This document shows positions 6,748-13,218 of a DNA stretch of 64,000 nt, piece after piece; position 1 is the stretch's first letter, and every line of letters begins with the position of its first letter. Source of the stretch: a virus. Location: IMG/VR virus record IMGVR_UViG_3300020419_000006, positions 1 through 64,000 of that record. One strand, given 5' to 3'. The position numbers were made by a program, and so were the translations under genes. The notes under the pieces were generated by a model. The model saw only the letters and a program-made list of their open reading frames with translations. It was not told the DNA's origin and searched no databases.

Positions 6748-7022
6748 AACTAACACAGGAAATTATTGACCAGATACAGGAAGCAATGCTTCATACCAAG
6801 AAAGATGGTAGTATCAACTGGAAAGATGGAGATGAATTGGAAGTGCAGTTAGCAGGTACGTTTGCTGCTGATAGATTTATTGTCATCAAGAACAAGAGAA
6901 TGTCTCCTGTTGTGAGTGCAGCACCTCATCCTTACTTTGATTATGAGAAGAATGTCTTTACCGAAGATGGTAGAGATAAGTGGATGAAGGATTGGATGAG
7001 GGACAATCCTGATGATGAATAA
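6744..7022 (+). CDS. Small hypothetical protein upstream of methyltransferase
   Basis: 92 residues with ATGA coupling to the upstream gene. Two basic/aromatic stretches (DGSINWKDGDELEVQ and DRFIVIKNKRM) suggest a small beta fold, and the C-terminus is acidic (DNPDDE). The last 11 bases overlap the start of the methyltransferase gene. It might be an accessory of the methyltransferase, but only proximity suggests this. Confidence 0.65.
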   Translation: MKLTQEIIDQIQEAMLHTKKDGSINWKDGDELEVQLAGTFAADRFIVIKNKRMSPVVSAAPHPYFDYEKNVFTEDGRDKWMKDWMRDNPDDE

Positions 7023-7947
7023 AGTATTATTCGGTGACTGTCGTGAAACACTGAAGACTATTGATACCAAGGCACGCATGTGTGTCACATCGCCACCATA
7101 CTACGGACTACGTAACTATGGTGATGAGGACAGGCAGATAGGTATGGAACAATCACCAGAAGAATACATTGCTGAAATGGTTAAGGTATTCCGATCAGTA
7201 CGTGATGTACTCACTGATGATGGTACACTATGGTTAAACATAGGAGACACATACTATAACTACAGGTCAGATGGTAACTATCCTAAACAGACAGTATCCA
7301 GAACCAAGCAAGACCTACCTAACTTCTCACCTGTTCGTGGTAACAAACTACAAGGACTGAAGAGTAAGGACTTGATAGGTATACCATGGATGTTAGCATT
7401 CGCATTGAGAGCAGACGGATGGTGGTTAAGACAGGATATCATCTGGAATAAACCTAACCCTATGCCTGAGAGTGTCAAGGATAGATGTACCAAGTCACAT
7501 GAGTACATATTTCTATTGAGTAAGAGTAAACAGTATTATTATGACAATGAAGCAATTAAAGAGCCAGTCAAGCAAGACTGGGGGACAAGAGACCGCACGA
7601 ACGGTAAGTACCATAATCCTGGTACTGGCCTGGCTCCTCATAGTGGGTTATCCAAGTCTTATGACAGGAAGAATAAACGATCTGTTTGGACTGTGACTAA
7701 TAAACCATACAAGGGAGCACACTTCGCTGTATTCCCACCTGACCTCATTGAACCATGCATACTAGCAGGCAGTGAGGAGAATGATATAGTCCTTGACCCA
7801 TTCATGGGTAGTGGCACCACAGCAATGGTTGCCAAGAAACACAATCGTAACTACATTGGTTGCGAGTTACATGAGGACTATGCCAGTTTACAGACTGACC
7901 GCATTGACAGCATTCCATCCCAATTACCTGCTATACTATGGAAGTAA
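7012..7947 (+). CDS. Beta-class DNA methyltransferase (N4-cytosine or N6-adenine)
   Basis: 311 residues, full length for the family. The catalytic motif IV appears first, TSPPYYGLRNYG at residues 26-37, and the AdoMet-binding motif I last, DPFMGSGTT at 262-270, with the HFAVFPPDLIEPCILAGS segment just before it. This order defines the beta class of amino-methyltransferases. SPPY is common in both N4-cytosine and N6-adenine enzymes, so the base cannot be decided. The target specificity region would lie around residues 80-220. ATG 7012 and 7015 are both possible starts. No endonuclease is adjacent, so it may be a solitary methylase that protects phage DNA. Confidence 0.88.
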   Translation: MMNKVLFGDCRETLKTIDTKARMCVTSPPYYGLRNYGDEDRQIGMEQSPEEYIAEMVKVFRSVRDVLTDDGTLWLNIGDTYYNYRSDGNYPKQTVSRTKQDLPNFSPVRGNKLQGLKSKDLIGIPWMLAFALRADGWWLRQDIIWNKPNPMPESVKDRCTKSHEYIFLLSKSKQYYYDNEAIKEPVKQDWGTRDRTNGKYHNPGTGLAPHSGLSKSYDRKNKRSVWTVTNKPYKGAHFAVFPPDLIEPCILAGSEENDIVLDPFMGSGTTAMVAKKHNRNYIGCELHEDYASLQTDRIDSIPSQLPAILWK

Positions 7948-8338: not shown

Positions 8339-8676
8339 ATAAACGACTGTGGCCTGAGGATGATGGTGCTTGTATCGCCATTGATAGTATGTCACGTCCT
8401 AGATACTTTGAGATTGAGATAGAAAATCGTCTCGATAACAAAGAACAATACCTCACAACTCTATTTCATGAGTTAATTCATGTAGAGCAACGTCTTCGTA
8501 ATACACACAGTGTCACTTATGATGCACGTCTCTGTCGTAGTGTCAACAAATGGCATGGTGATGTAGTTCCACCAGAAACTGCATACATGGATGAACCATG
8601 GGAGATAGAAGCATATGGTTTAGAGGGTCAACTGTATAAGGAATACAGGAAATATGAAGCAAAACTTAAGAATTGA
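8218..8676 (+). CDS. HExxH zinc metalloprotease-like protein (zincin)
   Basis: 152 residues from ATG 8218; an upstream in-frame stop at 8200 limits the start. The motif TLFHELIHVEQ contains HELIH at residues 84-88, the classic zinc-binding and catalytic HExxH. The segment EPWEIEAYGLE near residues 126-136 offers a glutamate as third zinc ligand, as in gluzincins and SprT-like proteins. A basic N-terminus (RNRKRIARN) could bind nucleic acid. Phage proteins of this kind may cleave host proteins or act in protein-DNA crosslink removal, but the substrate is unknown. Confidence 0.72.
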   Translation: MSCYVTFGGYRNRKRIARNAVEWFLQHRKLNRFNTFIHIVDKRLWPEDDGACIAIDSMSRPRYFEIEIENRLDNKEQYLTTLFHELIHVEQRLRNTHSVTYDARLCRSVNKWHGDVVPPETAYMDEPWEIEAYGLEGQLYKEYRKYEAKLKN

Positions 8677-9136
8677 GACGTTTTACGTTAAACCACCAGT
8701 AAATACAGATGAGATCCTTGATGATCTCGACTGGTGTCGTAGGGAAGATGCACCTGTAAAGGCAAATCTGACCGAATGGAATATATCTGACTACCTACCC
8801 GACCTATGCTCACAATTATATGTCCTCTTCCCGAACTATAAGATCGAAGATCTTTGGATTGCTTCGTACGGACTGGGAGACTACACAGAAAGTCATGACC
8901 ATCGCGGTTTTGATTGGAGTTTTGTGTGGTATCTGGATGCCTGTATTGACTGCAGTCCTCTCACGTTCCCAAACTTAAAGCATCCATGGTTGCCACCTCA
9001 TGTAATATATCCTAAGGTAGGCAACCTGCATGTATTTGATGGTGGATTAGTCCACTATGTGTGTCCACACACATGTACCCACGATCGAGTTGTGGTATCT
9101 GGAAACCTGACTACATATAACTCGGATAAGAAATGA
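8654..9136 (+). CDS. 2-oxoglutarate/Fe(II)-dependent oxygenase
   Basis: 160 residues, starting inside the end of the zincin gene. The double-stranded beta-helix landmarks are present: the iron-binding start ESHDHRGFDWSFVWYL with H81, D82 and H83, the distal FDGGLVHYV with H134, and R145 in DRVVVSGNL, which would grip 2-oxoglutarate. The spacing resembles the 2OG-FeII_Oxy families that are common in marine phages. Substrates in such phages are mostly unknown (protein side chains or bases). The assignment to the superfamily is good; the substrate is not inferred. Confidence 0.75.
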   Translation: MKQNLRIETFYVKPPVNTDEILDDLDWCRREDAPVKANLTEWNISDYLPDLCSQLYVLFPNYKIEDLWIASYGLGDYTESHDHRGFDWSFVWYLDACIDCSPLTFPNLKHPWLPPHVIYPKVGNLHVFDGGLVHYVCPHTCTHDRVVVSGNLTTYNSDKK

Positions 9137-9140
9137 AACA

Positions 9141-9383
9141 ATGGATCCTGACATTCAAAAACACTTTGACTTCAAATATGTGGAGGGAGAACTTCACATG
9201 TATATTAAGGCAGAATTCGTCAAGAAACTAGGATGGACGGATAAAGATATAGAACTATCATTCGGTAACATCAAGAGAATGAATAGTTTTAAGGGAGCAT
9301 CCCTATCCATCAACACAATTGAACAATCACATTATGAACACCCATGGCACTTACACCAGAAGAAAGAGAACTTAGAGCAATAG
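9141..9383 (+). CDS. Small hypothetical protein
   Basis: 80 residues, starting 4 bases after the oxygenase. It contains FDFKYVEGELHMYIKAEFV, a likely pair of beta strands, then a charged C-terminal part. No domain recognised. Its last 40 bases overlap the next gene in another frame. Confidence 0.6.
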   Translation: MDPDIQKHFDFKYVEGELHMYIKAEFVKKLGWTDKDIELSFGNIKRMNSFKGASLSINTIEQSHYEHPWHLHQKKENLEQ

Positions 9384-9562
9384 CAAGATTTTATAAGGAT
9401 GCCAAGTATGGTTTTGCGACCGAAGACGGTTATTACGCAATCCCTAGTGATGGTAAGAAGTTGGCTTTATTCCATAAAGGTGCTATAATTAAATGGTGTA
9501 GGAACGAACAATCCGCACGCAATTTAGTTAATCGCCTTCGTAAACGTGAAACCAATCGTTAA
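9344..9562 (+). CDS. Small basic hypothetical protein
   Basis: 72 residues, rich in Arg and Lys (ELRAIARFYKDAKYG and NLVNRLRKRETNR), so nucleic-acid binding is conceivable. It overlaps the preceding gene by 40 bases and the adenine methyltransferase by 17. A promoter for the downstream restriction-modification pair is embedded in its coding sequence. Being directly upstream of an R-M pair, it could in principle be a controller, but no helix-turn-helix is evident to me. Confidence 0.6.
   Translation: MALTPEERELRAIARFYKDAKYGFATEDGYYAIPSDGKKLALFHKGAIIKWCRNEQSARNLVNRLRKRETNR
9461..9489 (+). promoter_or_regulatory. Internal promoter ahead of the R-M pair
   Basis: TTGGCT at 9461-9466, a 17-base spacer and TATAAT at 9484-9489, with GC immediately before the -10 box. 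It lies inside the upstream small gene and about 57 bases before the GTG of the methyltransferase, so the R-M pair could be expressed on its own. Confidence 0.6.
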
Positions 9563-10415
9563 ATACCAAGGTGGTAAGTCAAGAGAGTTACCACTCATCA
9601 AGACATTACTACCACAGAACTATGACACTGTGCTCGAACCTTTTGCAGGTGGAGCAGCAGTGTCTTTTGCATTAGGACACCGATGCATATTAAATGATAT
9701 GAATGATGCATTGATAAACATGTATCAACAAGTATCAAATCCAACTACCTTTCATGATGTATTCTCTCATGTAGCATACTTGAAGACACTGGAGCATGAT
9801 GCACTCAGTGATGAGTACTATAAAGCAAGAGACTACATCAATGGTACAGAACGTGACCCATATGACTGGGCAGTATCATATATCACATTGAGACAGTTAT
9901 GTTTCAGTGGTATGGAGAGATACAACAAGGATGGTAAGTTCAATGTACCATTTGGACATTACAAGAGATTTTCATGTAACCTAGACTGGAACCACATGAA
10001 GTTCTTACATCAATCAGGTAGTAGCATCTATCATGGAGACTTCGCACCCATATTTGATATGGCAACAGAGGATGACTTCATATTCATAGACCCACCATAC
10101 CTAGACAGACTAGGATATACACATGGGGATGGAGGTAATACACTTCATACAAGACTAGTCGAGTGTATGCATAAGACCAAGGCAAAGTGGTTGTTCATAC
10201 ACACTAAGCATGACTTCTACATGGATACACTATGGGAGTATAACATCATGTTCAGACCACATGGTTACTCACAGAGGTTCGGTAAGAACAGAGACCATAG
10301 TGGTGCACAGGTAGAACACATGTATGTTACCAACTACGAGGATGATATGACACTCCATAGGGTGTCTAACTCATCGTTGCAGAATTTATTAGACCATGAT
10401 AGAATAGGAGCATGA
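9546..10415 (+). CDS. D12-class N6-adenine DNA methyltransferase (Dam-like)
   Basis: 289 residues, normal length. It has motif X KYQGGKS (6-12), AdoMet motif I EPFAGG (31-36), the family signature GMERYNKDGKFNVPFG (122-137) and catalytic motif IV DPPY (182-185). This order places it in the alpha-type D12/MboIIA class, which methylates adenine N6. The start is GTG; the next residues match the usual family start. Because the gene is overlapped (ATGA) by a probable endonuclease gene, it is best read as the modification partner of a type II system. The recognition sequence cannot be read from the protein. Confidence 0.92.
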   Translation: MKPIVKYQGGKSRELPLIKTLLPQNYDTVLEPFAGGAAVSFALGHRCILNDMNDALINMYQQVSNPTTFHDVFSHVAYLKTLEHDALSDEYYKARDYINGTERDPYDWAVSYITLRQLCFSGMERYNKDGKFNVPFGHYKRFSCNLDWNHMKFLHQSGSSIYHGDFAPIFDMATEDDFIFIDPPYLDRLGYTHGDGGNTLHTRLVECMHKTKAKWLFIHTKHDFYMDTLWEYNIMFRPHGYSQRFGKNRDHSGAQVEHMYVTNYEDDMTLHRVSNSSLQNLLDHDRIGA

Positions 10416-11095
10416 AACTAAGACCCCAATCACCTGGTAATGAGTACTTGAGGTATAACCTACTACCTCTCATTGATAGTATCGTGCCAAAGAATACATC
10501 ATCCAGTATATTATCTGCATGTGGTTTAGGTGATACCACATCAAGTCAGAGTATACTCATCACATGTGGTAACCGTTTCGAGAAGTTTTGGAACAAGGTC
10601 ATTACACACAGTCGTGGTGTAGACAATCAATTACCATTTGCAAATGGCACTGATAGGATTAAAGTTGATGCTAAGGACAGACAAGTAGATCACTTCTTCA
10701 GTATTCATGACCTTGAAAACAACAACTATGTGTATCTGGAGAGTAAGACCAACCTCGACTTCGATACAGAGAAGAAACCAGAGAGTAACGAGAAGATCAA
10801 GAGAGTTGGTGAACAACTAGGATTTGCATTTGATGCAACAGTAAATTGTGGTTACTATGTACCAGTTGAACGTGAGATTGACCAGAAGGTTAGATCACAC
10901 TATACCAAACATGGTGTTAATGTATATGGTGTAGAGGACATGTTCCGATGGTTAAATGATGTACCATTCACAATAGATGAGTATTTCATATTCCTACGTG
11001 AGGTCATAGGTCCTATATTGAAGGAGAAACTTGATGGTGTGACAGTGCAACAACCTGCACACAGTGGTAGACATAGTGACCTAGATGCACTATAA
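10412..11095 (+). CDS. Probable type II restriction endonuclease (PD-(D/E)XK fold)
   Basis: 227 residues, a typical size for a type II enzyme, with the ATG overlapping the methyltransferase stop. A candidate catalytic centre is D93 in RQVDHFF followed by E110-S-K112 in YVYLESKTNLD, 17 residues apart and at the end of a predicted beta strand, as in the PD-(D/E)XK fold. An upstream E57 lies in a helix (RFEKFWNK). The E-S-K followed by TNLD resembles other restriction enzymes. The call rests on this motif and on the tight coupling with a D12 methylase; I do not recognise a named isoschizomer. A terminator follows. Confidence 0.72.
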   Translation: MKLRPQSPGNEYLRYNLLPLIDSIVPKNTSSSILSACGLGDTTSSQSILITCGNRFEKFWNKVITHSRGVDNQLPFANGTDRIKVDAKDRQVDHFFSIHDLENNNYVYLESKTNLDFDTEKKPESNEKIKRVGEQLGFAFDATVNCGYYVPVEREIDQKVRSHYTKHGVNVYGVEDMFRWLNDVPFTIDEYFIFLREVIGPILKEKLDGVTVQQPAHSGRHSDLDAL

Positions 11096-11105
11096 TAATA
11101 GAGGG

Positions 11106-11131
11106 AAACAAAGGCACACGTGCTTTTTGTT
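11106..11131 (+). terminator. Rho-independent terminator after the R-M pair
   Basis: The arms AAGGCA (11111-11116) and TGCTTT (11121-11126), with one G-T pair and a CACG loop, run into TTTTTGTTT. It lies 15 bases after the endonuclease stop and would close the R-M transcript. Confidence 0.5.
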
Positions 11132-11161
11132 TCTCGCACCCTATTACTCACGGAGAGGTAC

Positions 11162-12490: not shown

Positions 12491-12665
12491 TAGAATACTC
12501 GAACGTAGACAACGATGCTACAAACAACTGATACAGACAGACCTGCCCATGGAGTTTGTATATGCATATTGTACTGAATGGGCAGAAGGAGACGAGATCG
12601 AACTCAATGTACCCAAGAACCCCAAGGTAGTCAAACGTGTTCCTACGTACAGACCAAGTAAGTAA
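12483..12665 (+). CDS. Small hypothetical protein
   Basis: 60 residues from ATG 12483 (MPDRILERRQRCYKQL). Basic at both ends and acidic in the middle (EWAEGDEIELNV). No domain recognised. It overlaps the preceding and the following gene, in keeping with the compressed layout of this stretch. Confidence 0.55.
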   Translation: MPDRILERRQRCYKQLIQTDLPMEFVYAYCTEWAEGDEIELNVPKNPKVVKRVPTYRPSK

Positions 12666-13218
12666 TAATAAACTCATCGGACTAGAACATGTGTATCCTA
12701 CACTTAAACAAGAGTGGGATGCATATAACCATGACATAGAGTGGAGAGACTTTACCACTTATATGGAACGTACTATCAATCAATCTAACCAAGGACATGA
12801 GATAGACAGTATAGAGAATGCACCAATAGCAACACCTCAATCTAAATGGAGTATCGCACCATTATTCTATCACAATCAACCATATACAAGGAATACTAAC
12901 CTATTACCTAAGTTAAGGAAGACTATGTACTGGTTAGGAGAGACTAGTTACGTAGGAATGGTTAAACTAGCATCAGATAGTGGTCTTGGATGGCATTATG
13001 ACCCTGATCCGAACCCAGTTACTCAGAGGATCAGATGTCAGTTACCATTTGACTGCTCAATCTCTACGTTATCTGTACAGAGTGAGAATAGACCCTATGC
13101 GGAGGGTAAGCTCATGATTTTCTTGAGTTCCGCACGTCATAAAGTACAAAATCAGGGAGAAAACGATAGAATTTCACTAGTTTTTGACCTGTTCCGTAAG
13201 GGGAAGGGTATTTTGTAG
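12637..13218 (+). CDS. Asp/Arg hydroxylase-like 2OG-Fe(II) oxygenase
   Basis: 193 residues from GTG 12637, which gives a 29-base overlap; a later GTG at 12691 is possible. The iron triad is visible: H120-x-D122 in GLGWHYDPD and H168 in SARHKV, with R178 in NDRISLVFD as the 2-oxoglutarate contact. The arrangement H-x-D, then RCQLPF, GKLMIFLSS, H-x-V and R-x-S-L-V-F-D matches the aspartyl/asparaginyl beta-hydroxylase-type cupin fold. It may hydroxylate a protein residue. It is the second oxygenase of the array and unrelated in sequence to the one at 8654. Confidence 0.72.
   Translation: MFLRTDQVSNNKLIGLEHVYPTLKQEWDAYNHDIEWRDFTTYMERTINQSNQGHEIDSIENAPIATPQSKWSIAPLFYHNQPYTRNTNLLPKLRKTMYWLGETSYVGMVKLASDSGLGWHYDPDPNPVTQRIRCQLPFDCSISTLSVQSENRPYAEGKLMIFLSSARHKVQNQGENDRISLVFDLFRKGKGIL

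Follow-up and report, generated by a model that had tools for sequence, protein, structure and literature searches.

Restriction-modification is a textbook defence of bacteria against phages, and the locus described here raises the question whether a lytic phage carries such a system of its own. The locus lies in a window of 64,000 nucleotides (the whole stretch of DNA that was analysed), taken from the start of a viral record that has 129,240 bases in all. A sequence-only reading of this window had proposed that two genes, a methylase and a nuclease, form a self-contained restriction-modification-like cassette. The phage is lytic and infects marine cyanobacteria. Judged by its baseplate wedge protein gp6, which has 80-81% identity to those of the Prochlorococcus phages P-HM1, P-HM2 and MED4-213, the window comes from a T4-like phage near that group. 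Since a DNA-level search of 4 kb against phage isolates gave no match, protein searches were needed for the comparisons.

The first gene of the pair (positions 9546-10415, plus strand, GTG start) encodes a protein of 289 aa, which belongs, as the sequence-only reading had stated, to the D12-class (Dam family) adenine-N6 DNA methyltransferases. In profile searches it matched PF02086 with an E value of 1.2e-38 and TIGR00571 (Dam family) with 160 bits against a cut-off of 115; it was assigned to phrog_56 and matched the DpnM structure at 1.6e-22. The DPPY and EPFxGG motifs are conserved and the catalytic motifs are intact. In E. coli Dam acting on GATC, K9 addresses the first base pair, L122 and P134 the third and R124 the fourth, while Y119 intercalates (PMC10073500). 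The residues K6, F120, M123, R125 and P135 of the phage methylase align with K9, Y119, L122, R124 and P134 of E. coli Dam, M123 being a conservative change, and all five are invariant among the methylase relatives aligned. Because the GATC-reading residues of E. coli Dam are kept, GATC is the likely site of the methylase. The frequency of GATC in the window (observed/expected 0.91) is a weak and unclear depletion, which neither supports nor excludes GATC as the site. Three other tetranucleotides, AGCT, CATG and TGCA, are clearly under-represented in positions 1-64000, with observed/expected ratios of 0.48, 0.69 and 0.77, respectively. At positions 7012-7947 the window encodes another DNA methylase, this one of the N6_N4 class (PF01555, 1e-57), which is 81% identical to the P-HM2 'dam' gene product PHM2_043 and has no evident nuclease partner.

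The second gene of the pair (positions 10412-11095, plus strand, ATG start) encodes a protein of 227 aa. Its start shares the sequence ATGA with the stop of the methylase gene (positions 10412-10415, plus strand), and the same 4-base overlap is present in the nearest relatives, L003 and L004. The protein matched phrog_26553, a phage family to which no function has been annotated, with an E value of 3e-54. It has no family match in Pfam, NCBIfam or PADLOC and no match by sequence in the PDB, and neither it nor its 33-member family matched the MutH/Sau3AI or Hjc profiles. Likewise, no known restriction enzyme family matches it by sequence; one relative matches RE_TdeIII, with an E value of 0.038 only. 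Phage_connect_2, RPA and alginate lyase came up as weak matches in the sequence searches and were discarded as identities. Two scans of 84,980 prokaryote genomes with short peptide seeds, which could miss distant bacterial relatives, and a plasmid search found no homologue.

We aligned 33 members of this family, drawn from the isolated cyanophages S-WAM2 and S-CAM8 and from viral contigs. Five residues, E57, Q91, D93, E110 and K112, are invariant. They include the putative catalytic D93 (codon at 10688-10690, in the motif RQxD) and the putative ExK motif E110-S-K112 (10739-10747), as well as E57 (10580-10582), an acid located in the first long helix; all these codons are on the plus strand. 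The AlphaFold (AF2) model built on this alignment has a mean pLDDT of 84.3 and a pTM of 0.81, and shows the order of elements expected for a PD-(D/E)XK core, i.e. a helix (residues 45-66, with E57), a strand, a strand with D93, a strand with E110 and K112, a helix and a strand. When the model was compared with the PDB by Foldseek, the best matches were mostly PD-(D/E)XK proteins, including Card1, Cdn1, EcoO109I, XisH, BamHI, MspJI, Can2 and McrBC. These matches are individually weak (best E value 5e-4, TM to query 0.24-0.40) and no specific Type II enzyme is prominent among them. As the single fold scores are modest, they support the PD-(D/E)XK superfamily but no subfamily. The dN/dS ratio of the gene is about 0.04-0.3 in close pairs, and the protein is therefore under purifying selection. 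Together with the invariant E...D...ExK set, this indicates a functional protein and not a degenerate neighbour of the methylase. We consider that the protein is, on the basis of the predicted fold, a probable PD-(D/E)XK endonuclease. The overlap of the two genes and the residues D93, E110 and K112 named by the sequence-only reading were confirmed, and the structure prediction, which it had proposed as a check, came out in its favour.

That reading had also put its case to the question whether homologues of the 10412 gene occur next to a methylase. The nuclease homologues from public viral contigs were clustered at 90% amino acid identity, which gave 39 clusters, and in 31 of them a related D12 methylase adjoins the nuclease on the same strand. 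The nuclease gene comes first in 23 of these paired clusters and the methylase gene, as in the window, in 8. Eight clusters have no adjacent methylase; two of these carry a methylase of the same branch (49-53% identical) about 8-10 kb off, and most of the others are fragments. Searching from the methylase side, we found the nuclease next to most loci with enough flanking sequence. Among 50 distinct methylase-nuclease pairs there is weak co-divergence (Mantel r 0.21, reached in 6 of 2000 permutations). Both genes are present in the cyanophage isolates S-WAM2 and S-CAM8, while P-HM2 and MED4-213, which have the same flanking gene order, contain neither the nuclease nor a close methylase; the pair therefore behaves as a single unit of gain and loss. 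These results show that the pairing is not due to chance. A coupled nuclease had been called rare. This is too strong, because many marine T4-like phages have the pair and related methylases are also accompanied by other nuclease candidates. Our search of the literature did not find the pair of these phages described.

Some nuclease copies are lone or tandem, though most are tied to a methylase. At L037:1346-2752 the nuclease family is present in two copies in tandem, on a 6.4-kb contig without a methylase, and no methylase match was found on G022, a 123-kb contig with the nuclease, whose record is a fragment. The split variants, which have about 8-10 kb between the nuclease and a same-strand D12 methylase, are on a 176.7-kb contig (L077, with the distance counted across the contig ends) and a 62-kb contig (L027).

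The next-nearest methylases from isolates are those of Klebsiella phage KP179 and Salmonella phage STML-198. Each overlaps an unrelated PD-(D/E)XK-like gene, whose product weakly matches Hjc; the STML-198 protein also appeared in the Foldseek search of viral folds. In viral contig L202 a related D12 methylase is overlapped by yet another nuclease-like gene (L202:2324-3001), which weakly matches REase_MTES_1575 and RE_BanI; a search for relatives of this gene recovered only the L202 locus itself. The candidates in KP179, STML-198 and L202 are leads to, rather than proofs of, partner exchange; the repeated occurrence of different nucleases beside related methylases is what would be expected of restriction-modification pairs. 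A nuclease-like gene upstream in L176 (weak match to PDDEXK_5) was left out of the swapped partners, because a methylase of the same kind, in L177, is followed by the usual nuclease.

The pair had further been credited with transcription signals of its own, namely a TATAAT promoter with a 17-base spacer in the preceding gene and a terminator at the end. The upstream site, TTGGCT-17-TATAAT with an extended -10, does exist inside the preceding gene (9461-9489, plus strand), but it is at chance level, since 9 promoter-like sites were found in the region and 9.1 in shuffled sequences. Its TGCTATAAT is retained in three relatives, yet it lies within conserved coding sequence. The start of the methylase gene overlaps a small ORF of 72 aa (9344-9562, plus strand), which is conserved in L003 and L004 and has no match in the corresponding region of P-HM2 or MED4-213; the pair therefore belongs to a run of overlapping co-directional genes. 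At the other end, a hairpin (11101-11137, plus strand) with a folding energy of -14.4 kcal/mol (z -3.7 against shuffles) lacks a clean T-run and was not accepted by the terminator scan, and it is missing from L003 and L004. The terminator was thus not borne out, and neither was the self-contained transcription of the cassette, as the hairpin is part of a different element.

The first half of this element is a better promoter-like sequence, TAGACA-17-TATAAT (11068-11096, plus strand, 11 of 12 matches), which overlaps the C-terminal and stop codons of the nuclease gene. The sequence TAGACA-17-TATAATAATAGAG (11068-11103) runs through the final nuclease codons, and the stem-loop follows. The whole unit (11068-11137) is also present in P-HM2, where it stands directly after PHM2_047, the homologue of the window gene at 9141. 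Its layout is that of the PeSL elements of T4-type phages, in which a stem-loop comes immediately after an early promoter at the boundary of a module, and here it is kept between the window and P-HM2; the difference is that the window promoter passes through the last nuclease codons. Reports on T4-type phages ascribe gene shuffling to PeSL elements (Arbiol 2010 and Comeau 2014, as cited in PMC4503421). The encoded tail is also common to the window and P-HM2 (GRHSDLDAL versus GRQRDMDAL); residues 211-227 of the nuclease form a disordered tail that is absent from the nuclease-first relatives. Because both the PeSL layout and the encoded tail are shared with P-HM2, it is suggested that the gene at 9344, the methylase and the nuclease were inserted at the PeSL-like element, and that the disordered tail of the nuclease is a by-product. 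A similar hairpin is found 3' of the nuclease gene in L058 and L060.

Taken together, the two genes probably form a phage-borne Type II-like restriction-modification pair, and in this respect the sequence-only reading offered the best explanation, favoured by the predicted PD-(D/E)XK fold and by the linkage in 31 of the 39 clusters. Three features of a Type II system were found here, namely a methylase with intact motifs, an endonuclease with a known catalytic fold (by prediction only) and a conserved linkage of the two. The computed support comprises the methylase family, the PD-(D/E)XK-like model with the invariant D...ExK, the same-strand linkage in two gene orders, the purifying selection on the nuclease, the joint absence from close relatives and the position at the promoter/stem-loop unit. 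In such a pair, the methylase would mark the phage's own DNA at a short site, which is most likely GATC, and the PD-(D/E)XK nuclease would cut DNA in which the site is unmarked, such as the host chromosome or the DNA of a co-infecting phage. Cleavage activity, a specificity shared by the two enzymes, GATC as the site and a role as a weapon or in the recycling of host DNA are what we infer from these data. Its recurrence in dozens of related marine phages makes the pair a probable weapon against the DNA of the host or of rivals, with the phage's own DNA protected.

Three other explanations were weighed. The nuclease might act in repair, recombination or replication, like Hjc or MutH, with the methylase providing strand or self discrimination, a housekeeping role without attack on foreign DNA. 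The PD-(D/E)XK superfamily does include resolvases and MutH, a Dam-like methylase would fit the logic of MutH, and the partner gene in KP179 and STML-198 weakly matches Hjc; however, the window nuclease itself has no such match, its neighbours and the gene order differ between phages, and the absence of the pair from P-HM2 and MED4-213 shows that it is dispensable. We regard this role as unlikely. The lone and tandem nuclease copies, the patchy distribution and the insertion beside a shuffling element would also be compatible with a homing-like, selfish mobile endonuclease moving together with the methylase, or near it, without functional coupling. The adjacency of the two genes on one strand, seen in 31 of 39 clusters and in both orders, the joint presence or absence of the genes and the other nuclease candidates beside related methylases argue against it and make it rather improbable.

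It is very improbable that the methylase is an ordinary orphan protecting against host restriction, with a degenerate or non-nuclease protein next to it. Orphan methylases are common in phages and the window's second methylase, at 7012-7947, appears to be one without a partner, but an orphan has no companion nuclease gene, whereas here a conserved PD-(D/E)XK-like gene adjoins the methylase; its fold matches, its invariant E...D...ExK set with low dN/dS and the conserved linkage all speak against this explanation. T4 Dam, an orphan phage methylase of the same D12/Dam family (23% identity over the alignment), differs in this respect, since the T4 dam gene, located between genes 56 and 61, has no neighbour annotated as a nuclease partner.

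The restriction-modification reading can be compared with several known systems. The bacterial Type II system DpnII/DpnM resembles the pair in that a Dam-family methylase of the DpnM type adjoins a small nuclease gene, but the phage nuclease family is without match in Pfam, NCBIfam, PADLOC, PDB sequences and prokaryote seed scans. In KP179 (gp241-242) and STML-198 (gp067-066), both T4-like, a same-branch D12 methylase (39-40% identical) overlaps a PD-(D/E)XK-like gene, which belongs to a different, Hjc-like family. That a virus may have its own restriction-modification pair is already known from viruses of eukaryotes. In the chlorovirus systems (CviAI, CviAII, CviJI and others) the methylase and site-specific nuclease genes are always adjacent (PMC7019647, PMC7253447), and chloroviruses are thought to degrade host DNA with these nucleases, which are packaged (PMC7019647). 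As in the phage pair, both enzymes are virus-encoded and would serve infection and not cell defence; chloroviruses, however, infect eukaryotic algae, and host DNA degradation has been linked to their packaged nucleases. In the GATC system mel_015/mel_016 of a marseillevirus, a nuclease adjoins a GATC adenine methylase, and the system appears to act on rival viruses rather than on the host, exclusion of competing viruses having been proposed (PMC7253447). This is an amoebal giant virus with a CviAI-like nuclease, and activity on other viral DNA was tested there. By analogy, either host DNA degradation or attack on rival viruses would fit a lytic cyanophage.

What is new is a nuclease family that is apparently undescribed, as judged from the literature, the prokaryote seed scans and plasmids, its wide, conserved association with a methylase of the Dam type in marine lytic T4-like phages, and the position of the pair at a shuffling element. 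If the reading is true, lytic phages of abundant ocean cyanobacteria would use a bacterial weapon in reverse, much as chloroviruses and marseilleviruses seem to in eukaryotes, and the pair would be a genetic basis for phage-phage exclusion or host DNA recycling. A wider proposal, which we make tentatively and rate at somewhat less than an even chance, is that marine T4-like cyanophages use this PD-(D/E)XK restriction family offensively against rival phages or the host genome with a Dam-type methylase as guard, that several unrelated nuclease families have been recruited to related methylases by T4-like phages, and that the cassettes are swapped at promoter/stem-loop junctions. The cultured phages S-CAM8 and S-WAM2 make the phrog_26553 family directly testable.

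Oxygenase-like genes lie on both sides of the cassette region, a 2OG-Fe(II) oxygenase (PF13759) at 8654-9136 and an Asp/Arg hydroxylase (PF05118) at 12637-13218, and the L004 copy of the second methylase has a cysteine-rich insertion.
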